Shown here one piece after another: positions 2,526 through 13,534 of a DNA stretch of 64,000 nucleotides (within the stretch, counting starts at the first letter, position 1; the number at the start of each line of letters is the position of its first letter). The position numbers and the translations under genes are program-made. This DNA is from Exiguobacterium acetylicum (GTDB lineage: Bacteria; Bacillota; Bacilli; Exiguobacteriales; Exiguobacteriaceae): contig NZ_CP082333.1 of NCBI RefSeq assembly GCF_019890935.1, forward strand, positions 336,001 through 400,000, written 5' to 3'. A model generated the notes under the pieces. The model was not told the DNA's origin. It made no database searches and saw only the letters and a list, made by a program, of their open reading frames with translations.

Positions 2526-4493
2526 ATGAGTAGTGTGTCGGATGCTAAATTTATAGGTGAATTAAGAAAAGGAAGTAGTATTACTCTAGTCAATAATGAT
2601 CAAGCTTTAAAATACGATATAAAAATTGTTTCAAATCCTTCAGAGAACTTACCTAAAGATGCTACAAATTATTTAAATGGTTTTTCAACAGATTTAAGAA
2701 ATTTAGGATTCATAGATGATGTAAATGAAACTAATGAAAATAGAATAAAAAATTTAGAAAAATTCTTAGAAATTCATTACTTAATATTTAAAATTAAATA
2801 TAAAACAGCTGATGAGAATAATAGAAAATTTTATAATGCAATTGACATAGAAGTTGTAAGAAGGGAAAGTGATAAGGATTTTATATTTTATCCAATCCCT
2901 ATAATAAACCGTGATAAATATGAAGTTAAAAATGAACTGGAAAAGTTATTTAATAATGAATATATCAATGAAACTTTTGATATATCTAAAAGTGAAGATG
3001 ATTACCCATCATTTATAATAATTAATGAAAGTAATAATAATAAAAATGAAATAAATCAAAATGATGAATTAACTATTTTTGGACCGATAAATAAATTAAT
3101 TTCTTCAAAAGAATATGGAATTAAATTTGTTACAGAAAACGAATATAGTCATTTTTATAAAATAAACCTTAAAGATTTAGGAGAATCGTATCTCACTAAA
3201 AATTTGATTTTTGTTTCTCAAGAAGTTGACGATAAAATGATTGAACTATTGAAAAAAGGAGAAAAAATATTACCAGAAAAAAATAAAATAAAAGTCGAAG
3301 AAAGTGCAGAATTAGAATTTATTGAAATTTTTAAGACAGTAGCATTAGAGAAAAAGCTTTCTTACAGAGATCAGGATTTATTAAACTTTCATACTTCGAT
3401 GAAAACTCAAGGATTGGTTATTCTATCGGGATTAAGTGGAACAGGTAAATCTAAAATTGTTCATTGTTATCACGAAGCATTAAATAGGTTTTCAGATAGA
3501 ATTGAAAATAAAAATATAATAAATCACTCTAATGAATTGTATCCTAAGGAAAGAGCAAAGTTATTGTTTGTTCCAGTACGTCCATTTTGGCAAGATGATT
3601 CGGATTTATTAGGATATATGGATAATAATAACGGAATCTATAGACCTGGTGAGTCAGAATTAATAGAGTTTATTCTTGAAGCTAAAGATAATAAAGATGA
3701 GTGTTATATAGTTTGTCTTGATGAAATGAATTTAGCAAAAGTTGAACATTATTTTTCTCAGTTTTTATCTATTCTTGAAAAAGAGCATTCTGAAAATCGT
3801 ACTTTAAATATCTATAATTCTAAAATAGAAAATAGAGTGTATAATTCTAAGGATTATCCACCAACTATTTTACTTAGAGATAATTTATTTTTTGTTGGAA
3901 CAGTTAATATAGATGAATCGACTTTTCAATTTTCAGATAAAGTTCTTGATAGATCAAATGTAATAACCATGGAAGTTTCAAACTTTAATCAAATAAGAAA
4001 TAGTATTTTAAAATTTAATAATGATAATCATATTAAGAGTGAAGAGAAAAGTAGTATGGGAATTAAAGAACCACTAAAAACTTTTAGTAAGCTTAAAAGC
4101 ATGATGAGGAATGAAAAAGTAAATGTTTTGACAGATGATGAAGTAAATTTAATATGGAATATACACAACTTACTTCATAACGCCAACAAACAATTAGGAG
4201 TAGGTTATAGAGTATTGTCACAAATTGAGAAGTATATTGCCAATTTACCTGTTTCTGAAATTTACGATAGAGAAATGGCATTTGATTATCAAATAGTTCA
4301 ACGAGTTCTAACAAAAGTCAGAGGTTCAAAATCACAATTAGAAGAGTTACTAGGTAGTAGTAACGATGGTAAGTACCTACCAGGTTCCCTTTATAAGTTA
4401 TTAGAAGAATCTAATATTTCTAATTTTGACGAATCGAAAAACACTATTATTCAATTATCTAAGGAGATTGAAGAATATGGACATACCATTTGA
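2526..4493 (+). CDS. McrB-like AAA+ NTPase of a type IV restriction system
   Basis: The 655-residue protein has an N-terminal region of about 270 residues with no recognised domain, presumably for target recognition, then a McrB-type AAA+ domain. Visible motifs are Walker A GLSGTGKS (302-309), Walker B CLDEMN (D399, E400), and the signature N461-I-D463 followed by a conserved LDRSNVI segment. Classical McrB has NxxD; here it is the shorter NxD form. In the family, McrB hexamers hydrolyse GTP to drive the McrC nuclease. The gene abuts the broken coiled-coil gene and overlaps the nuclease gene by 17 bases. Codons are strongly A/T-ending, unlike the core genes, which points to transfer. Confidence 0.85.
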   Translation: MSSVSDAKFIGELRKGSSITLVNNDQALKYDIKIVSNPSENLPKDATNYLNGFSTDLRNLGFIDDVNETNENRIKNLEKFLEIHYLIFKIKYKTADENNRKFYNAIDIEVVRRESDKDFIFYPIPIINRDKYEVKNELEKLFNNEYINETFDISKSEDDYPSFIIINESNNNKNEINQNDELTIFGPINKLISSKEYGIKFVTENEYSHFYKINLKDLGESYLTKNLIFVSQEVDDKMIELLKKGEKILPEKNKIKVEESAELEFIEIFKTVALEKKLSYRDQDLLNFHTSMKTQGLVILSGLSGTGKSKIVHCYHEALNRFSDRIENKNIINHSNELYPKERAKLLFVPVRPFWQDDSDLLGYMDNNNGIYRPGESELIEFILEAKDNKDECYIVCLDEMNLAKVEHYFSQFLSILEKEHSENRTLNIYNSKIENRVYNSKDYPPTILLRDNLFFVGTVNIDESTFQFSDKVLDRSNVITMEVSNFNQIRNSILKFNNDNHIKSEEKSSMGIKEPLKTFSKLKSMMRNEKVNVLTDDEVNLIWNIHNLLHNANKQLGVGYRVLSQIEKYIANLPVSEIYDREMAFDYQIVQRVLTKVRGSKSQLEELLGSSNDGKYLPGSLYKLLEESNISNFDESKNTIIQLSKEIEEYGHTI

Positions 4494-6243
4494 TTTAAAA
4501 TTTATAGAAACTAAAAATGGTAAAAAATATTTTAATAATATAGTTGATTTCACTGATTCTTTAGAATCTCTTATGAATAATAAGGAAAACTACATCAATG
4601 AAGTAAGTGAGCTAATTGATTTAGAAATTTACTTTAATTCTGAGAATAAATATCTCAAATTTAAAATTGAATTTTTAGATATATTGCCGGAAAATGAATT
4701 TAAAAGTGATGAAGATTACTTTTTTACTCCTGACGATAATAATAGAACAATATATATGAATGATTCGAGAAATGGTCACAATTACACTTCGTTAATACCA
4801 GGAGATTATATTATTGAAGTAAGTGAAAATGATAATAAGTTCATGACATTTTTAAAAGTGAACCCTAAAAATGTTGATTTTAATCAGTTAAATAGTATGA
4901 AAGAGGAGATTGAGACAGTTATTAAGGGTTTATCTAAGGAAATTTCTTTAAAGCGAAATGCTGTAGTTAAAGAATCTGAGTTAGATATTCTTGGGAAAAT
5001 TGCATTTTTCTCCTCAGTATCACAAGAAATAATTTTTTATTTGATGAAAATCAAAAAAGATCCGAAATTTCAAATTGAGAAAAACTATTTTGTTACTATA
5101 GATAAAGGGAAAAACAATGATTTATATACACAAAAAATGAATCAATATATTGGTAAACCCTCAAAAAAGGTTAGTTTTAGAAGAGAAATTTCTTTTGATA
5201 ATAATTTAAATCAAGGAATTCTATACATAGCTGACTATTTTAGTAAGGAGATCCAGTATCTAATAAAATATCTTCAAGAAAAATTAAGATTATTAAAAAC
5301 CGAATATGAAATTCAAAAAAGATATAAAAATAATAATTTTGATATTAATTCAGAAATTAATAAATTTGAAATAATGAAAGAAAAACTGAACAAAGTATTA
5401 AAAACATTAAATCTGTTTATTAGTTCTGACCAACTTCAAAATCTAAAAAAGAGCGGGAAAAATCTTCAGTTATTAAGTAGATATTCAAACTATAGAATTT
5501 TGAGTAAGTTTTATTTTCTTTATACTAATAATGATTTTTATGATAAATTGAACGGGTTTTCTAGATATCATTATATATACAAAGAAAGCTCTAAATTGTA
5601 TGAAATATGGGGATTTATTAAGATTTTAATGTTAATTAAAAATAGTAAATATGAATTTCAAGAAGTTAAAGGTTGGATTTTCGATGGAGATGGAGATAAA
5701 GATTTTCCGATTTTAAAACAAGGAGAAACTATAGTATTTACAAGTAAAAACAGTTTAAAACTTATATTGAAATACGATGCATTTATACCTCGTGGTGTAA
5801 ATAAAATTAGTGATGATACTGAACCTCTATTTACTATAAGAGAAAACAATAGACCAGATTTTAGAATCGATATTTATAAAGAGGAATTGTTCAAAGGTAG
5901 TATTATTGGAGACTTTAAGTATAGACCACTAAATAATATAGGAAATTTAAATACGTATTTAAATAACCATGTGTACAATAGTGGCTTTAAAGTTTACAAG
6001 CAACTTTTAAATTATAGTAGTGCTCAATCATATTTTTTGAATAGTAAAGTTAAGAAAAGAACACCCAAATCAGCTGTTGAACGAGTATTTTGCTTCTATC
6101 CTGTAGTTCAAAATAAAACACAATTTAAAATAGATGAAAATACTTGTATAATCAGATATTCGTTAAGTCCCGACGAACAAAATTTAAATGAATTGGAACA
6201 AATTCAACAAGAAATTTATAAAATAATCGACGATCTAGAATAA
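4477..6243 (+). CDS. McrC-like DUF2357 nuclease subunit
   Basis: This 588-residue protein pairs with the McrB-like NTPase. The long N-terminal half resembles DUF2357 proteins. Near the C-terminus a PD-(D/E)xK nuclease core is visible: R459-P-D461, then G478-D479-F-K481, followed by Tyr-Arg. ATG 4477 is chosen because AAGGAG lies at 4461-4466; a longer frame upstream lies inside the NTPase gene without a site. Coupling by a 17-base overlap supports a two-subunit restriction complex. The target (modified DNA, phage DNA or RNA) cannot be told from sequence. Same A+T-rich composition as its partner. Confidence 0.8.
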   Translation: MDIPFDLKFIETKNGKKYFNNIVDFTDSLESLMNNKENYINEVSELIDLEIYFNSENKYLKFKIEFLDILPENEFKSDEDYFFTPDDNNRTIYMNDSRNGHNYTSLIPGDYIIEVSENDNKFMTFLKVNPKNVDFNQLNSMKEEIETVIKGLSKEISLKRNAVVKESELDILGKIAFFSSVSQEIIFYLMKIKKDPKFQIEKNYFVTIDKGKNNDLYTQKMNQYIGKPSKKVSFRREISFDNNLNQGILYIADYFSKEIQYLIKYLQEKLRLLKTEYEIQKRYKNNNFDINSEINKFEIMKEKLNKVLKTLNLFISSDQLQNLKKSGKNLQLLSRYSNYRILSKFYFLYTNNDFYDKLNGFSRYHYIYKESSKLYEIWGFIKILMLIKNSKYEFQEVKGWIFDGDGDKDFPILKQGETIVFTSKNSLKLILKYDAFIPRGVNKISDDTEPLFTIRENNRPDFRIDIYKEELFKGSIIGDFKYRPLNNIGNLNTYLNNHVYNSGFKVYKQLLNYSSAQSYFLNSKVKKRTPKSAVERVFCFYPVVQNKTQFKIDENTCIIRYSLSPDEQNLNELEQIQQEIYKIIDDLE

Positions 6244-6788: not shown

Positions 6789-7112
6789 ATGCCACTTTAT
6801 CATAAATTAGTTCGAGACGCGATTCCAAATATCATCGACCAAAACGGAAAAAAAGCAACGTTCCGAACGCTGAATGAACATGAATTCCTAGTGGAAGCGA
6901 AAAAGAAATTACATGAAGAACTGGCTGAATATGAGGAAGCGACGACGGACGAAGACGCTGTCGAGGAGTTAGCCGACTTACTGGAGCTGATCCAAGCGTT
7001 AGCGAAGACACATGGCGTGACAGTCGATGAACTGGAAGCCGTCCGGGCGAAGAAACAGCAACAACGCGGCGGCTTCGAAGAACGCCTCTACCTGATCGAG
7101 GTCGAGAATTGA
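6789..7112 (+). CDS. MazG-like nucleoside triphosphate pyrophosphohydrolase
   Basis: The 107-residue all-alpha protein begins PLYHKLVRDAIPNII and carries the metal-binding pattern EELAEYEEA ... EELADLLELIQ (about residues 39-68), typical of MazG/HisE-type enzymes that remove pyrophosphate from NTPs. It is not HisE, because no histidine genes are near and the RDAIP start marks the stand-alone MazG-like group. Its TGA overlaps the TTG start of the PLD-helicase gene, so the two are translationally coupled. That coupling suggests nucleotide control linked to a nuclease-helicase, as in some phage-defence loci; this role is inferred. Confidence 0.85.
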   Translation: MPLYHKLVRDAIPNIIDQNGKKATFRTLNEHEFLVEAKKKLHEELAEYEEATTDEDAVEELADLLELIQALAKTHGVTVDELEAVRAKKQQQRGGFEERLYLIEVEN

Positions 7113-9424
7113 TCCCGGAAGCGAAGCTGACGACGCATCATTTATATGACTCACTCGTCGAGGCCATTGATCAGGCAGAGGAAGTCTATATCGTCGCAGC
7201 GTTTGCTCAGAAATCAGGCGTCGCCTTGCTCGTCCCAGCGTTTCGTCGTGCCTTGCAACGAGGAGCCGAGATTCGGCTGTTGATTGGCGACTATCTACAC
7301 ATCACCGATCCAGAAGCACTGGCGCAGTTGCTTGCGCTTGATGGGTTGTCAGTTCGCTTTTACCGGTCAGGCGGACGTTCCTTCCATCCGAAAGCGTATC
7401 TGTTTCGAAACGCAGAGACTGGTTTATCAATCGTCGGTTCGTCGAACATCTCGAACAGTGCGCTTCGGTCCGGTATTGAATGGAACGTTCATTTACCACA
7501 AGCCGTCGCACCACAAATCCTTGATGATGCAATCGATGCCTTCATGGATCTTTACCTCAGTGAATCGGCAGAAGAACTGAATCCGATTGTCTTAGATGCT
7601 TACCGTCAAGAGTACGCGGCACGTCAATATGTCGCGGAACCAGAAGTCGAGTATGACGAAGGAACCGTCGTCGTTGCACCAGAAATCCTACCACACCGGG
7701 TGCAGGAAGAAGCGCTCCAAGCATTACGGGAAACGATGGAAGAAGGGCGGACACGTGCGTTGGCGGTGCTCGCGACTGGATTAGGGAAGACTTACCTCAG
7801 TGCGTTCTTTGCGGGAGATTTTACACGAGTTCTGTTTCTGGCACATCAAAAAGAACTATTACTGCAAGCAGAGCGTTCGTTTCAAAAAGTCAATCCGGCG
7901 TGGAAGACCGGCTTTTATATCGGCAGTGACCGGACCGTCACGGAGACGACGGAGATCGTCTTCGCTTCCGTCCAGACGTTGGCGCAAAAGCGTCACTTGG
8001 ACCGTTTTGCAACGGATCAGTTTGATCTCATCATCGTCGACGAGTTCCATCACGCGGCAGCAACGAGTTACAAAAAAATTATCGATTATTTCACGCCCCG
8101 TTTTTTGCTTGGTCTGACGGCGACACCAGACAGGATGGACGGTGCGGATGTCTATGCGATCTGTCACCATAATGTTGCGTTCCAGATGCACTTCACGGCA
8201 GCGATTGCTGAAGGCTTTTTGACGCCGTTTCATTATTACGGTATTCATGACACGATCGACTATTCCCAGATTCGACGAATCGGTAGGACCTATGATGCGT
8301 CGCAGCTCGAGCATCGACAACTTGATCGAGACGTCGCAGATAATATCTATCATTCGTGGGAGAAGCATCGGCAAACGAAGACGATCGGCTTTTGTTCGTC
8401 AATCAAGCAGGCGGAGTATCTGGCGCAAGTATTCCGGGAAAAAGGAACGACGACATTTGCACTGACTGGGCAGACGACCAATCGCACAAAGTACATGCAA
8501 GCATTTGAGCAAGGAGAAATCGACGTCCTCTTTACCGTCGATTTGTTCAACGAAGGTGTCGATATTCCGAAAGTGGATACACTCCTGTTCTGTCGTCCAA
8601 CCGAGTCGGTCGCCATCTATACGCAACAAATCGGACGTGGCTTACGTTTAGCGCAAGATAAATCGCACTGTGTCATCATTGATTTGATCGGGAACTATCG
8701 TAACGTTGAGACGAAACTGAAACTGCTCGGGACGATGAAAGAATCGTTCAAGCGAGGCGAAATAGAACCGATTACGCCACCGCCCGGCTGTGTGATTGAG
8801 TTCGATACGCGAGCACTGGAATTGATTCATCGACTACGACAACCAAGCCAGCGGAAGTTACGACTGATTGAACAATATGAGCAAATCAAATATGAACTCG
8901 GTCGTCGACCATCGTATGCTGAGATCGGGGAATATGCGGCAATTCCGCAAGGCTATAAACAAGAATGGGGCTCTTACGTTGGGTTCTTGAAAGAGCGTCA
9001 GGAGTTATCAGGCGAGGAGATTGAGGCGTACGATTCTAATCGAGAATTGATCGAACAGGTCGAAAAGACAATTATGAATCGAAGTTATAAGATGGTTGTT
9101 CTGTTAGCGATGCTTGAGCGGGGAGAAGAGCGTTGGATGGAGCCGATTACGGCCGAAGAAGTAGCACCATTCTTTTATGAGTATCTGCATGCGGAGAAGT
9201 ATCGGGAATTGAAAGATGCACAAACGGCAGAGTTAAAAGGAGCATTTAATAAACATAAAATAGAGCGCTTATTAATAAAACAGCCAATGTCTAAAATTGG
9301 ACCACCATTTGTCTATAAAAATTATCATTTATCAGTTTTAGTTTCATTAAAATTCCCAAATGAAATTTACAAAATAATACAGGGGATAATTAATTATAGA
9401 TTAACAAATTACTTTTTTAATTGA
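7109..9424 (+). CDS. PLD-nuclease / superfamily 2 helicase fusion (DUF3427-type)
   Basis: The 771-residue protein has an N-terminal phospholipase D-like nuclease domain (H-x-K around residue 93, GSSNIS near 111), then a superfamily 2 helicase: Walker A ATGLGKT (about 222-228), DEFH near 310, LGLTATPDR near 331, and motif VI QQIGRGLRL near 512. A DUF3427-like C-terminal region follows. The TTG start at 7109 overlaps the MazG-like stop. The last 60 or so codons (after about 9240) turn sharply A+T-rich while the rest is core-like. So the 3' end may have been replaced by recombination; the PMSK motif near the end could still belong to the family. Confidence 0.82.
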   Translation: MIPEAKLTTHHLYDSLVEAIDQAEEVYIVAAFAQKSGVALLVPAFRRALQRGAEIRLLIGDYLHITDPEALAQLLALDGLSVRFYRSGGRSFHPKAYLFRNAETGLSIVGSSNISNSALRSGIEWNVHLPQAVAPQILDDAIDAFMDLYLSESAEELNPIVLDAYRQEYAARQYVAEPEVEYDEGTVVVAPEILPHRVQEEALQALRETMEEGRTRALAVLATGLGKTYLSAFFAGDFTRVLFLAHQKELLLQAERSFQKVNPAWKTGFYIGSDRTVTETTEIVFASVQTLAQKRHLDRFATDQFDLIIVDEFHHAAATSYKKIIDYFTPRFLLGLTATPDRMDGADVYAICHHNVAFQMHFTAAIAEGFLTPFHYYGIHDTIDYSQIRRIGRTYDASQLEHRQLDRDVADNIYHSWEKHRQTKTIGFCSSIKQAEYLAQVFREKGTTTFALTGQTTNRTKYMQAFEQGEIDVLFTVDLFNEGVDIPKVDTLLFCRPTESVAIYTQQIGRGLRLAQDKSHCVIIDLIGNYRNVETKLKLLGTMKESFKRGEIEPITPPPGCVIEFDTRALELIHRLRQPSQRKLRLIEQYEQIKYELGRRPSYAEIGEYAAIPQGYKQEWGSYVGFLKERQELSGEEIEAYDSNRELIEQVEKTIMNRSYKMVVLLAMLERGEERWMEPITAEEVAPFFYEYLHAEKYRELKDAQTAELKGAFNKHKIERLLIKQPMSKIGPPFVYKNYHLSVLVSLKFPNEIYKIIQGIINYRLTNYFFN

Positions 9425-9509
9425 AAGATAATAAGATAAAATTCAATTATTAAAGTTCTATAAAATTTTTAATCGTTATGATAAATAAAACGTAATTGAG
9501 GAGAAAAAA

Positions 9510-11312
9510 ATGAACATAAACCCTGAATCAAAGCCCATTTCTGAAATATTTTCTATTGAAGGAAGAACAATATATAAAATTCCGATATACCAACGCAATT
9601 ATTCATGGAATGACAGTAATATCGAATCACTTTACAATGATGTAATCAACGAAGAATCTGGATACTATCTAGGGAATTTACTTGTAACTCCTTCTCAAAA
9701 TAAAAATGAATTTGATGTTGTAGATGGTCAACAGAGGCTTACAACAATTGCTCTGTTTTTATTAGCGATCTATGAAGAACTAAATAATATTGATGACAAG
9801 AACTCTTCAAAAGTACAAAGAGAATCTATTTATTCTTTAAAAACAGATATTAAACGAAAACTAATAGGTTATGAAAATAAACCAAAATTAAAATTACTTG
9901 AGCCGGATGCCGGAATTTTTATGAATTATCTTCGAGTGTTTGAAGATAAAGATAAGGGTAAATTCGGAAATAGAACCTTTGGAAAACGTTACAAATTTAT
10001 TCAAAGTCTTATAAGTATTGGTAGTATAAATGATTTGGATGAAATAGAAAATTTCTACAAAAAGTTAAATAATATAGAACTATTAAGAATCACAGTCAAT
10101 GATTTAACCGATGCTTACTCAGTTTTCATTTCTTTAAATGCTAAAGGACTTCCTTTGACACTAGTTGATTTATTAAAGTCATATTATCTAAGTGAAGCAG
10201 TCGAAGATATTGGAGATAGTAACGCTTTAGAAGAGTGGAATAAGCTAATTCATATTTTTTCTAATGAGAATGGAGAAACAAATATTCCTTCAATAACACA
10301 ATTTTTCCAAAATAATTATGATACTTTTGAGAGTGATTCTACGTCTTCAATAACTAAACAAGCTTCCCTTAGAAAGTATGAGAAATTATTCAAAGAAAAG
10401 AAGTATAAATATATGCAGACATTATTAATTAACGCAAAAATTTTCTCTAATATTATTCCTAAAATAAAAAGTAGCGATGAATTATTTTTTAATGAGAATC
10501 TCCAAATTAAAATCAAACAATTATCTAAACTTGAAACATCTCCAATATACCCTTTAATGCTATTTTTATTAAAAAAGCTAACTGAGAATAAAATTTCTGA
10601 GAATACATTAACTTCTATTTTTGATTATTTAGTGAGTTACTATGTTCGTAGAAATATTGTGCTAAAACCTAAATCTTCAAACATTCGTGCAAAAGCAATA
10701 CAGACTGTTCGCCAACTTGAGAAAATCGAAGATAACTTAGATAATATTGCTTTACTCACAATAAAAAATATTCTAAATCCTATAAAAGTAAGTGACGAAG
10801 AATTTTTAGTGAGATTAGATGAATCTGTATATGATACTTCACCACAAACAGTTCGATTCATCTTAATAGAAATTGAAAGAAAATATGGAAACTTATTTAA
10901 TAAACAATATAAGGATACATTAGATGATTATGAGAATGGGAAACCTATTTGGACGCTAGAACACATCTTACCGCAAAATATTAATCTTAAGAAATCATGG
11001 AAGCAAATGATTGCTCCGGATAATATAGAAAACGCTGAAAATCTTCAAAAAGAAAATATGCATAGAATAGGAAACATTACTCTTACTGGTTATAACTCTG
11101 AATTGAGTGATAATGATTTTATAGAAAAGCGTGACTATAGGCCAAAAGGATCTCAAGAGTATACAGGATTACGTACCAAACTATTTATAAATAAATCTAT
11201 CATTACTGATGAATTAACAGGAAATTTAAAAACATCTTGGACCATACAGGATATTGATATTCGTACAAAAAAATTAGCGGATTTAGTGTTAAAAGTTTTT
11301 TCTATTGATTAA
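9510..11312 (+). CDS. GmrSD-type modification-dependent endonuclease (DUF262/DUF1524)
   Basis: The 600-residue single-chain protein begins with a DUF262 (GmrS) domain: IPIYQRNYSW near residues 24-33 and VDGQQRLTT near 72-80, a ParB-like NTP-dependent fold. It ends with a DUF1524 (GmrD) HNH-type nuclease: LEHILPQ near 484 and HRIGNITLTG near 525. The family cleaves phage DNA carrying glucosylated hydroxymethylcytosine, using NTP. The start at 9510 follows GAGGAG. The gene is very A+T-rich, stands alone on the + strand and ends in a bidirectional terminator. The exact modified base recognised is unknown. Confidence 0.88.
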   Translation: MNINPESKPISEIFSIEGRTIYKIPIYQRNYSWNDSNIESLYNDVINEESGYYLGNLLVTPSQNKNEFDVVDGQQRLTTIALFLLAIYEELNNIDDKNSSKVQRESIYSLKTDIKRKLIGYENKPKLKLLEPDAGIFMNYLRVFEDKDKGKFGNRTFGKRYKFIQSLISIGSINDLDEIENFYKKLNNIELLRITVNDLTDAYSVFISLNAKGLPLTLVDLLKSYYLSEAVEDIGDSNALEEWNKLIHIFSNENGETNIPSITQFFQNNYDTFESDSTSSITKQASLRKYEKLFKEKKYKYMQTLLINAKIFSNIIPKIKSSDELFFNENLQIKIKQLSKLETSPIYPLMLFLLKKLTENKISENTLTSIFDYLVSYYVRRNIVLKPKSSNIRAKAIQTVRQLEKIEDNLDNIALLTIKNILNPIKVSDEEFLVRLDESVYDTSPQTVRFILIEIERKYGNLFNKQYKDTLDDYENGKPIWTLEHILPQNINLKKSWKQMIAPDNIENAENLQKENMHRIGNITLTGYNSELSDNDFIEKRDYRPKGSQEYTGLRTKLFINKSIITDELTGNLKTSWTIQDIDIRTKKLADLVLKVFSID

Positions 11313-11331
11313 TTCAATTGAATATTTAAGC

Positions 11332-11390
11332 ACAATGAAAAAATATAGCTAGGATAATAACGAGCTTTTAGTGCTATATTTTTTCATTGT
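11332..11390. terminator. Bidirectional terminator hairpin
   Basis: Perfect 18-bp arms at 11332-11349 and 11373-11390 contain A6/T6 runs around a 23-base loop. It lies between the convergent GmrSD and second MazG-like genes. Confidence 0.75.
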
Positions 11391-11446
11391 TAGTTTTTAT
11401 ATGATCTTTAAAGAAAGTATTATAAGTGTAATGAATTTATAGAATT

Positions 11447-11758
11447 TTACTCCATTTTATCGATCTTATACTTTATTTTATTTTTATTGATTTTTTCTAA
11501 GATAATATCTTCAATGTTTAAATTTAACTCGCTACATAATGTCAGCGCGTAAATCAATACATCAGCAATCTCTTCTTTAATATTTTCTTCATTTTCTTCC
11601 CAAGCTTCTTCACTTGTCTTCCACTGAAAAGCCTCCAATAACTCAGACGCTTCGATAGATAAAGAAATTGCTAAGTCTTTAGCGTTATGGTATCGCCTCC
11701 AATTCCTTTCATCCCGAAAGTCATCGACTTTTTTTATTAAAGATTCAATTTCATTCAT
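11447..11758 (-). CDS. Second MazG-like nucleotide pyrophosphohydrolase
   Basis: The 103-residue helical protein matches the dCTPase/XTP3-TPA-like branch: RDERNWRRYH near residue 15, EASELLEAFQW near 36-46 and EEIADVLIYAL near 62-72, which supply the acidic metal ligands. It should hydrolyse (d)NTPs to monophosphate and pyrophosphate. ATG 11758 overlaps the TGA of the upstream GIY-YIG/DUF2075 gene by four bases, so the pair is one translational unit. It is not closely similar to the MazG-like protein at 6789, so the two pairs arose separately. Confidence 0.87.
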   Translation of the reverse strand: MNEIESLIKKVDDFRDERNWRRYHNAKDLAISLSIEASELLEAFQWKTSEEAWEENEENIKEEIADVLIYALTLCSELNLNIEDIILEKINKNKIKYKIDKME

Positions 11759-13389
11759 GAGTCATTCTCCTTTAGCTGTAATAGACATTTTCGCAATTGC
11801 AGATTTGTAGCATAAAGATAAAGTCCTTTTACGCCTCGCTTCATCAAAACATTTAATGAGTTTAAAATGATGTCTTCTTTTGCCTGTTCATTTTCTGATT
11901 TACTTAAGTCCTGACGCGAAATAAAGGCGCCTTTATCCTTATAGTGCGTAGAATCAATGACTAGCTTCTGAGTCTCTTCGTCATATTGAATGGAAGGACC
12001 AAGCACAACACCTACGTAATTTAAATCAAATCCTTGAATTGTATAGATTGATCCAATTTCATTTATCGTTTCGGGTTGTTCTGCCCACGTTATATTTGAA
12101 TAACTACGATTCCAGGGAAGGTTGATGCCATCCTCGTCTACGTAATAGTCAGCACCATCTTTTTTATGAAGATAATCAAAGGTTGATACCATTCTTGAAA
12201 GTCCATATTTTTGATCTTTTTGAAAAATTGCTTGTTTGAATGCTTCGGGATCTTCGAAGATTTGAAAGTCATAGTTAGAGTCTGATGGTAGTGGTAGAAT
12301 CTCTCGTTCTACAAAACGATTGATCCAATGTAATGTTTTTTGACTAGCTTGCATTCGAAATTGCTTGGATAATCGTAACGTTTTCGTTGCAAAGGGACCT
12401 ACGATTTCCTCAAGAGTAGTACGTCCCCAGTGGCTCTTGATTTTTAATACTTGTTTAGGATCAAAAATTAGAATAGTGACTTTACTACGTGTAATGATTT
12501 CGTTCAGCTGATTTTTTTGATGAAAGTTGTTATACGTATCTTCTTTTGTTAAGAGTAGGTGTGCTTCATCAATTAGTACAATGTCTACCATTGTGTTTTG
12601 ATTACTCAATGTATTTATGAATGGTGTAGGTTTTTGAAATTGTTTTTTCTTCAGGTTCGGTAAGCTTCCCGCAATCGATTTATACGTTTTTAGCATTTCA
12701 CTATGATTAACAAGTAAGTAATTGTCTGTTTGATAAAGAGCGGAACTTGTATCTTTCGACAGGTCCTGGATTGTATTGAATAAAGAACTAAGCAAAACAC
12801 TTTTGCCTGTCCCGGCATCTCCTTCAACAATAAATACATGATGTCCTGATTGTGTAATATTTATTTTGCAGTATTCTAGTATTTCTTGTTTTACTTCGAG
12901 TTGTTGCTCAGACAATTCACGATATGGAGAAAGTTTATAAACATCTTTATTGCGTAGGTGTTCAAGTGTTCCTTTAGCAATGCTTTCTTCACGCAATCGT
13001 TGCCAAATGTTTTCGAAGACCGTCTCATTAAAAAAGGACTTTTGATAATAATTATGAGTATAGCGAGAGGCTGTTTGACTGACGTTCTGCAACTTATAAT
13101 GGCCGTCAGCAATCAGAAAGTTGATCAAATTAGACTCTATGTTATAAGTGGCTGATTGGTTAAACTGCTCGTGTCCAATTAAAATTGTTTGATCAAGTTG
13201 TTTACGTCGAGAATCTTTTAAATGGGATTTTAATCTTTGGTTTTTTTGAACCGTTTGCCCTACATATGCTTGTTCTTTAGTTGAATTGTACAATAGGTAA
13301 ACGATTGGATAATCGTCTATAAAATGCGAACGTGTACTGATTACGTCACTATAAGTAAATTTAAGTTTTTCGAAATAAAGATTTTTCAC
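11755..13389 (-). CDS. GIY-YIG nuclease fused to DUF2075 helicase-like NTPase
   Basis: The 544-residue protein starts with a GIY-YIG endonuclease domain (VYLLY ... AYVGQT at about residues 30-46, Arg and His near 53-56, catalytic-type Glu near 85). A DUF2075 P-loop domain follows: Walker A EGDAGTGKS near 189-197, Walker B VLIDEAHLLL near 270, and a late TIQGFDL motif typical of superfamily 1-like DUF2075 proteins. GTG 13389 is preferred over a TTG at 13407 because AGAGG precedes it at a proper distance. It overlaps the MazG-like gene. A DNA-processing defence role is inferred from domains and context. Confidence 0.82.
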   Translation of the reverse strand: MKNLYFEKLKFTYSDVISTRSHFIDDYPIVYLLYNSTKEQAYVGQTVQKNQRLKSHLKDSRRKQLDQTILIGHEQFNQSATYNIESNLINFLIADGHYKLQNVSQTASRYTHNYYQKSFFNETVFENIWQRLREESIAKGTLEHLRNKDVYKLSPYRELSEQQLEVKQEILEYCKINITQSGHHVFIVEGDAGTGKSVLLSSLFNTIQDLSKDTSSALYQTDNYLLVNHSEMLKTYKSIAGSLPNLKKKQFQKPTPFINTLSNQNTMVDIVLIDEAHLLLTKEDTYNNFHQKNQLNEIITRSKVTILIFDPKQVLKIKSHWGRTTLEEIVGPFATKTLRLSKQFRMQASQKTLHWINRFVEREILPLPSDSNYDFQIFEDPEAFKQAIFQKDQKYGLSRMVSTFDYLHKKDGADYYVDEDGINLPWNRSYSNITWAEQPETINEIGSIYTIQGFDLNYVGVVLGPSIQYDEETQKLVIDSTHYKDKGAFISRQDLSKSENEQAKEDIILNSLNVLMKRGVKGLYLYATNLQLRKCLLQLKENDS

Positions 13390-13534
13390 TGTATGAAATC
13401 CTCTCAAGGTAATGATAAATGATTTGAATCACATGTAATATAATGTAATTTACATAATTGAATAATACTATAAATTGTAATCTATATAGCATTTGAATTT
13501 TAAACATGCTATTTATTCAGGAGGAAAAGGACTA

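Follow-up and report, generated by a model that had tools for sequence, protein, structure and literature searches.

The two MazG-like gene pairs of the window, a 64,000-nucleotide stretch of the Exiguobacterium acetylicum chromosome, are instances of a broader gene arrangement: a nuclease-helicase lies next to, and often overlaps, a small nucleotide-handling enzyme of swappable type. Because a partner is often kept while its type is exchanged among relatives, the arrangement suggests that the partner matters to the working of these probable anti-virus nucleases. As to its role, the reading that we favor, with a probability of roughly 0.4, is that the partner would act as a cleaner of modified nucleotides, protecting host DNA from a modification-dependent nuclease.

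In pair 1, MazG1 (6789..7112, forward strand), an all-alpha NTP pyrophosphohydrolase-like protein, is followed on the same strand by hel1 (7109..9424, TTG start), a short SauUSI relative of 771 aa with a PLD nuclease and an SF2 helicase. Pair 2 lies on the reverse strand and begins with hel2 (11755..13407), a GIY-YIG nuclease joined to a Schlafen-group-3 (DUF2075) helicase, followed by MazG2 (11447..11758), which is dCTP-pyrophosphatase-1-like (PF12643, 1.2e-16). The overlap is 4 nt in both pairs (MazG1/hel1 at 7109-7112, hel2/MazG2 at 11755-11758), and AAGGAG-like sites are present upstream of MazG1 and of MazG2. A sequence-only reading of this DNA had described two MazG-like genes each overlapping a nuclease-helicase, and all four genes were found where it had placed them; gene order is indeed reversed, with MazG first in pair 1 and second in pair 2, and the nuclease and helicase families differ according to Pfam (PLDc_2, ResIII, and Helicase_C in hel1 versus GIY-YIG and PF09848 in hel2). 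That reading had also called the two MazGs unrelated. They do fall in different branches, the pairwise sequence match not being significant, but the stronger claim is unsupported, as comparison of their profiles gives a match in the EELAD region with 69% probability.

hel1 was aligned with residues 41-667 of the 953 in SauUSI (PDB 7clg; 3.4e-85) and matches the PADLOC model mREase_IV (3.3e-84), its other PADLOC matches being to weaker helicase models. The PLD active-site residues H93, K95, N113, and E124 are invariant in 12 aligned homologues. Pfam scans of hel1 and of its last 240 aa found no DUF3427, the SRA-like reading domain, so we class hel1 as a relative of SauUSI and not as SauUSI itself. 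The tail is poorly predicted (residues 669-771, pLDDT <50). A tail of the hel1 type, bearing a "SYKM" motif, has a match in the N-terminal part of a Paenibacillus albidus McrB-like protein with MrcB_N and AAA_5 domains (L201:842-3091; 4.9e-7), and this single match hints at a type IV role. In a sister genus, a small gene with a hel1-tail-like domain (L045:3846-4316) overlaps the end of hel1. MazG1 weakly matches PF01503 (5.7e-5), and its AF2 model is a helical bundle (pLDDT 95.6) whose closest structural matches are HisE and E. coli MazG, with weak E-values of 0.14-0.28. Residues K40, E43, E44, E47, E60, D63, and E66 are invariant in 11 aligned homologues, and the motif is kept in 33 of 34 distinct PLD-helicase-linked homologues when a wider spacing is allowed (20/34 with a narrower one).

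Among 121 relatives, the short PLD-helicase, counted by hand at an identity of at least 43%, occurs in 46 genomes, and MazG1 lies directly upstream (from overlap to ~15 bp) in 43 of these. In the other three, a HIT gene occupies the MazG1 slot (G055 and G086) or the sequence ends at a contig edge (G114). Conversely, hel1 is the neighbor of 43 of the 54 MazG1 matches with E<1e-14; one more (G094) adjoins a GIY-YIG/SLFN helicase, and 10 are elsewhere. The survey of adjacency that the sequence-only reading had proposed thus gives, for pair 1, a conserved and by no means rare association.

The partner slot was then typed more broadly in an even draw of 398 Bacillota genomes, 77 of which contain matches to a PLD-helicase profile (91 rows); seven fragments or contig-cut rows were dropped, leaving 84. 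The 44 proteins of at most 925 aa have MazG1 alone (16), HIT alone (9), both (7), MazG1 plus a NUDIX shared with a neighbor (1), NUDIX (1, a broken long form), or none of these (10, two of them contig-cut), and six of these last ten share 15-37 bp with an overlapping class I methyltransferase gene. The 40 longer proteins have NUDIX in 20 cases (two also with MazG1) and no partner in 20 (two cut). The nearest partner lies at -49 to +62 bp in all cases but one (222 bp). A tree of 107 PLD-helicases, comprising 79 of the 84 typed proteins and 28 added by hand, some chosen with knowledge of their partner, contains a short-form clade of 48 rows (SH-aLRT 94), 46 of which have MazG1, HIT, or a methyltransferase; it is made up of 45 short forms, all partnered, and three proteobacterial plasmid rows, one with a methyltransferase. 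SauUSI-like long forms on the tree have NUDIX in 24 of 27 cases, and a third clade, mostly of ~1050 aa, holds 29 rows, three of them untyped, with 19 of the 26 typed rows lacking a partner. Partner labels change 34 times on this tree against a shuffled mean of 66.5, and partner types are therefore clustered yet often swapped. The genome of the window itself has another SauUSI relative (L107), a long one that includes DUF3427 and is overlapped by a NUDIX gene in convergent orientation.

Such linkage could in principle be hitch-hiking, the adjacency arising from general defence-island clustering or chance. A null drawn from other ORFs in the same loci (38/269) is unusable because those ORFs adjoin the same partner genes, and base rates in the genome of the window, 24 NUDIX genes and 1 HIT gene, were taken instead. 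The abundance of NUDIX genes would favor hitch-hiking, as would the phage homologues of MazG1, which are often solitary (a PLD-helicase is present on the fetched DNA in 1/80 viral loci, not abutting). The gene overlaps and linkage of 43/46, 46/48, and 24/27 speak against it, as does the recurrence of HIT in the slot of other genomes when the genome of the window has a single HIT gene. We strongly disfavor this explanation and regard it as very improbable.

The PLD-helicase-linked partners keep their active-site motifs (HIT 24/24, NUDIX 35/35 distinct sequences). Scanned against NCBIfam, 11 NUDIX partners score best with PRK10546 (pyrimidine dNTP diphosphatase; five), PRK08999 (five), or MutT (one); the curated cut-off is passed by 1/11, and that one is MutT, not NudG. 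HIT partners weakly match the PADLOC ThsC/ThsC2 "HIT family" model (4e-13), which is a point in favor of signal control, that is, of a partner that makes or destroys a nucleotide-derived ligand switching the nuclease-helicase. Signal control would also account for MazG1, HIT, NUDIX, and methyltransferase in one slot, but Pfam and PADLOC recognized no nucleotide-signal synthase in the pairs, and SauUSI works alone (PMC3874153). We therefore consider it rather unlikely.

The second pair tells a similar story of linkage with exceptions. hel2 has a GIY-YIG domain (PF01541, 1.6e-5) and PF09848 (2.4e-100), named DUF2075 in plasmid annotation and SLFN-g3_helicase in the Pfam release used; its residues Y37, Y48, G50, R58, and E91 are invariant in 10 aligned homologues, and PADLOC 2.0 gives weak PDC-S14 and PDC-M16A matches only. 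The 121 relatives yielded 24 hel2 rows in 22 genomes, two rows being one gene, and among the resulting 23 loci the 1.5-kb flanks hold MazG2 in 19, MazG1 in its stead in one, and no MazG of either kind in three. Across the 398 Bacillota genomes, hel2 matches at 16 places in 15 genomes, with MazG2 within 1.5 kb at ten; two of the six matches without MazG2 are fragments. At one of the ten (G504, L129), MazG2 and MazG1 stand in tandem. The adjacency survey thus finds pair 2 conserved as well, at 10/16 in these genomes and also on an archaeal plasmid, and with both adjacencies conserved an outcome that the sequence-only reading had named as fatal to its proposal, a rare and unconserved association, is not what the surveyed genomes show. 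In Bacillus sp. J37 (L186:7556-12462), MazG2 lies beside hel2, with a MazG1 gene ~4.2 kb further on.

A non-random set of hel2 homologues (106 rows, 105 different), in which 26 loci added by hand supplement the 80 best named ones of the species collection, was divided by size, with manual reassignment of four rows to another bin (L164 and L209, split; L196, broken; L206, helicase-only with a long start). N-terminally extended homologues have MazG within 1 kb in 64/88 and lack it in 24/88, and the helicase-only clade has it in 0/18. Ten of the 88 extended homologues form a separate clade, six with MazG2, and no GIY-YIG was found in the five members scanned with Pfam. Rows without MazG are mainly from Planococcaceae, Lysinibacillus, Sporosarcina, and Kurthia and have no constant substitute. 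MazG as a required core was accordingly rejected, HIT or methyltransferase filling the slot and MazG2 being absent in a group of Planococcaceae and relatives.

MazG2 matches structure-database entries 4qgp (1.5e-21) and DCTPP1 (3e-13). The DCTPP1 pocket is given as His38, Trp47, Glu63, Glu66, Trp73, Glu95, Asp98, and Tyr102 in PMC4491611, and MazG2 keeps seven of these eight (Trp47, Glu63, Glu66, Trp73, Glu95, Asp98, and Tyr102). In 64 aligned rows, with the window counted twice, the metal residues are present in all and the His38 equivalent is I or V in all, and the equivalents of Trp73 and Tyr102 are F in three rows each. By its metal-binding and pyrimidine-pocket residues MazG2 is DCTPP1-like, with hydrolysis of dCTP/5-methyl-dCTP as its predicted activity. 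PMC4491611 also reports a lower Km of DCTPP1 for 5-methyl-dCTP than for dCTP and more genomic methylation after DCTPP1 knock-down.

These observations bear on the mechanism offered by the sequence-only reading, in which MazG drains dNTPs/NTPs on infection while the nuclease-helicase degrades phage DNA. Consistent with a depletion weapon are the retained active-site motifs of the MazGs, the translational coupling, and the placement in a defence hot spot, and dNTP-depleting defences of other folds are known. The swap of MazG for HIT or methyltransferase is not obviously pool-draining, however, MazG2 resembles a selective enzyme and is often absent beside intact nuclease-helicases, and neither pair shows a separate sensor gene; we judge depletion unlikely. 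Of the broader interpretation, a joint design of MazG and nuclease-helicase, the conserved adjacency stands, but MazG as the necessary common part does not, given HIT, NUDIX, or methyltransferase in the slot and 24/88 hel2 homologues without MazG. Its remark that it knew of no named defence system of this design agrees with PADLOC 2.0, which has no match for MazG1 or MazG2 and no multi-gene system matched by both genes of either pair.

The two pairs stand at a variable site bounded by ridA (19/19 genus genomes) and a gene present in 8/19, with MazG1 at most 140 bp from ridA in 13 of the 19, 1.5 kb off in one, and absent in five. GC content differs along the site: ridA and pair 1 are of native composition (range 0.47-0.50; pair 1 itself 0.47-0.48), and McrBC-like genes at 2526-6243 (0.25), a GmrSD/DUF262 gene at 9510-11312 (0.28), and pair 2 (0.31-0.35) are AT-rich. 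The McrB-like AAA and McrC-like PDDEXK genes at 2526-6243 overlap and were probably acquired recently, and the GmrSD/DUF262 gene, for which the best PADLOC models are Orf5 and HEC-06, stands between the pairs. Nine ridA-side regions of relatives (L488 (G001), L489-L496) were sampled by scanning 35 of their 75 ORFs of at least 200 aa; among the matches listed, for the first 25 of 196 families, there is one SspF, and four ORFs match PbeC or DndD models, perhaps the same four. Some genomes carry one pair without the other. We attribute the proximity of the two pairs here to a common defence hot spot; a functional link between them was considered and is not needed, given the shared variable site, the differing GC, and the pairs found singly.

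Similar loci occur on plasmids, of which 13 regions were examined, the L. plantarum plasmid counting in both helicase tallies. Seven regions with a PLD-helicase have NUDIX in three (L. plantarum, Hymenobacter, S. aureus), an abutting methyltransferase in one (Pseudoalteromonas), and none in three, and seven with a hel2 relative have MazG in three (L. plantarum, L. salivarius, and the archaeon Halalkalicoccus) and none in four. In the S. aureus record, labelled a plasmid, the helicase frame is SauUSI over residues 1-656, where it is cut short, with NUDIX directly upstream. On the L. plantarum plasmid, NUDIX, the SauUSI-like helicase, MazG, and GIY-YIG/SLFN follow consecutively; this region (L227:2249-7644) and that of G504 (L282:1917-9620) each bring the two nuclease-helicase kinds and their partners together in a single cluster. 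On the Hymenobacter plasmid, an HNH endonuclease gene is followed immediately by a HIT gene (L231:574-1959), near the plasmid's NUDIX-PLD-helicase pair, perhaps another nuclease with a HIT partner. In viral contigs, hel1's own patterns found no relative. Scanning them with profiles yielded 80 helicase loci and 2 SLFN loci, and no typed partner is present on the DNA fetched for these; beside the 14 good PLD-helicase and 2 SLFN loci no MazG, NUDIX, or HIT was present on that DNA, some loci ending at the gene. A search of 1241 ORFs of at least 350 aa from 496 fetched loci recovered no partner-nuclease fusion, its one match (L481) being a phage protein whose MazG1 domain is accompanied by no named Pfam domain.

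In the pool-cleaner reading, the nuclease-helicase would be a type IV-like enzyme cutting invading DNA with modified bases, and modified nucleotides would arise from degraded phage DNA or from phage metabolism. The partner would destroy those modified nucleotides that match the base read by the nuclease, most likely 5-substituted dCTP for MazG2 and NUDIX, and host DNA would thereby not acquire, through salvage, a mark that exposes it to attack by the nuclease. Linked to its nuclease as a cleaner of the pool, the partner would then protect rather than serve as a second weapon. MazG1, HIT, and methyltransferase may be included by analogy. The case is built on the linkage rates, the kept partner motifs, the hydrolysis of 5-methyl-dCTP by DCTPP1 and NudG, and NUDIX beside the m5C/hm5C-dependent SauUSI. 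Orf135/NudG and DCTPP1 are named as 5-methyl-dCTP hydrolases in PMC10742078, and a NudG rate is given in PMC3744803. We also count the absence of MazG beside helicase-only hel2 homologues (0/18), and the activity of SauUSI alone in E. coli, a host that has NudG. According to PMC3874153, SauUSI cuts m5C and hm5C DNA and its single polypeptide suffices for restriction in E. coli; an accessory partner hence fits at least as well as joint attack.

Several observations weigh against the pool cleaner: hel1 is without DUF3427, His38 is replaced in every MazG2 row, a methyltransferase in the partner slot is not a hydrolase, and the sole curated NUDIX assignment is MutT and not NudG. Partnerless nuclease-helicases are also numerous, in the third PLD-helicase clade (19/26), among hel2 homologues (24/88), and at the 14 PLD-helicase and 2 SLFN viral loci. 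The substrate logic is shared by complementary attack, in which the partner destroys the phage's modified dNTPs (e.g., hm-dCTP) and the nuclease-helicase cuts DNA already modified. DCTPP1-like and NUDIX partners fit complementary attack too, and sequence does not separate it from the pool cleaner, but a phage full of modified base would probably swamp a small enzyme, and we hold it to be improbable.

More generally, and with greater reserve than for the cleaner role itself, we tentatively propose that at least two unrelated kinds of modification-dependent nuclease-helicase may be kept safe by a dedicated, swappable, base-matched pool cleaner encoded alongside, averting autoimmunity via nucleotide salvage, a principle absent from the papers searched. 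The search covered open-licence papers, which makes novelty provisional, and returned no description of MazG with either nuclease-helicase and no paper for MazG with DUF2075 or SauUSI with MazG; MazG and Nudix are likewise absent from the text available of a McrBC census (PMC11090510) and a 2025 restriction review (PMC12707154). If true, SauUSI itself would be a two-gene system, and SauUSI-type enzymes could be recast from single proteins to two-gene systems. It would become testable how a modification-dependent nuclease avoids attacking the genome of its own cell as infection adds modified nucleotides to the pool, with a candidate enzyme for each case. Many uncharacterised MazG, NUDIX, and HIT genes could also gain a suggested role, and programs that find defence systems a new signature to look for.

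Parts of the arrangement have known counterparts. NUDIX beside SauUSI matches the PADLOC candidate PDC-S07 (1.1e-55), and a SauUSI-adjacent NUDIX is thus an already listed defence candidate, although PDC-S07 is a single-gene candidate with no MazG or HIT version. NUDIX-SauUSI adjacency is also in print, as Streptococcus MutT homologues beside SauUSI homologues (PMC7641849, Fig. 9 legend), where in the text available it is labelled "DNA repair", without a mechanism and without MazG. MazG2 shares with DCTPP1 (RS21-C6) a sequence match and seven of eight pocket residues as given above, but has a hydrophobic residue for His38 and is encoded with a GIY-YIG/SLFN helicase. hel1 has in common with SauUSI the PLD nuclease, the SF2 helicase, and the coupler region (SauUSI 41-667), and differs in its length (771 versus 953 aa), its lack of DUF3427, and its tail; SauUSI in S. 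aureus has NUDIX directly upstream, and hel1 has MazG1 in its place.
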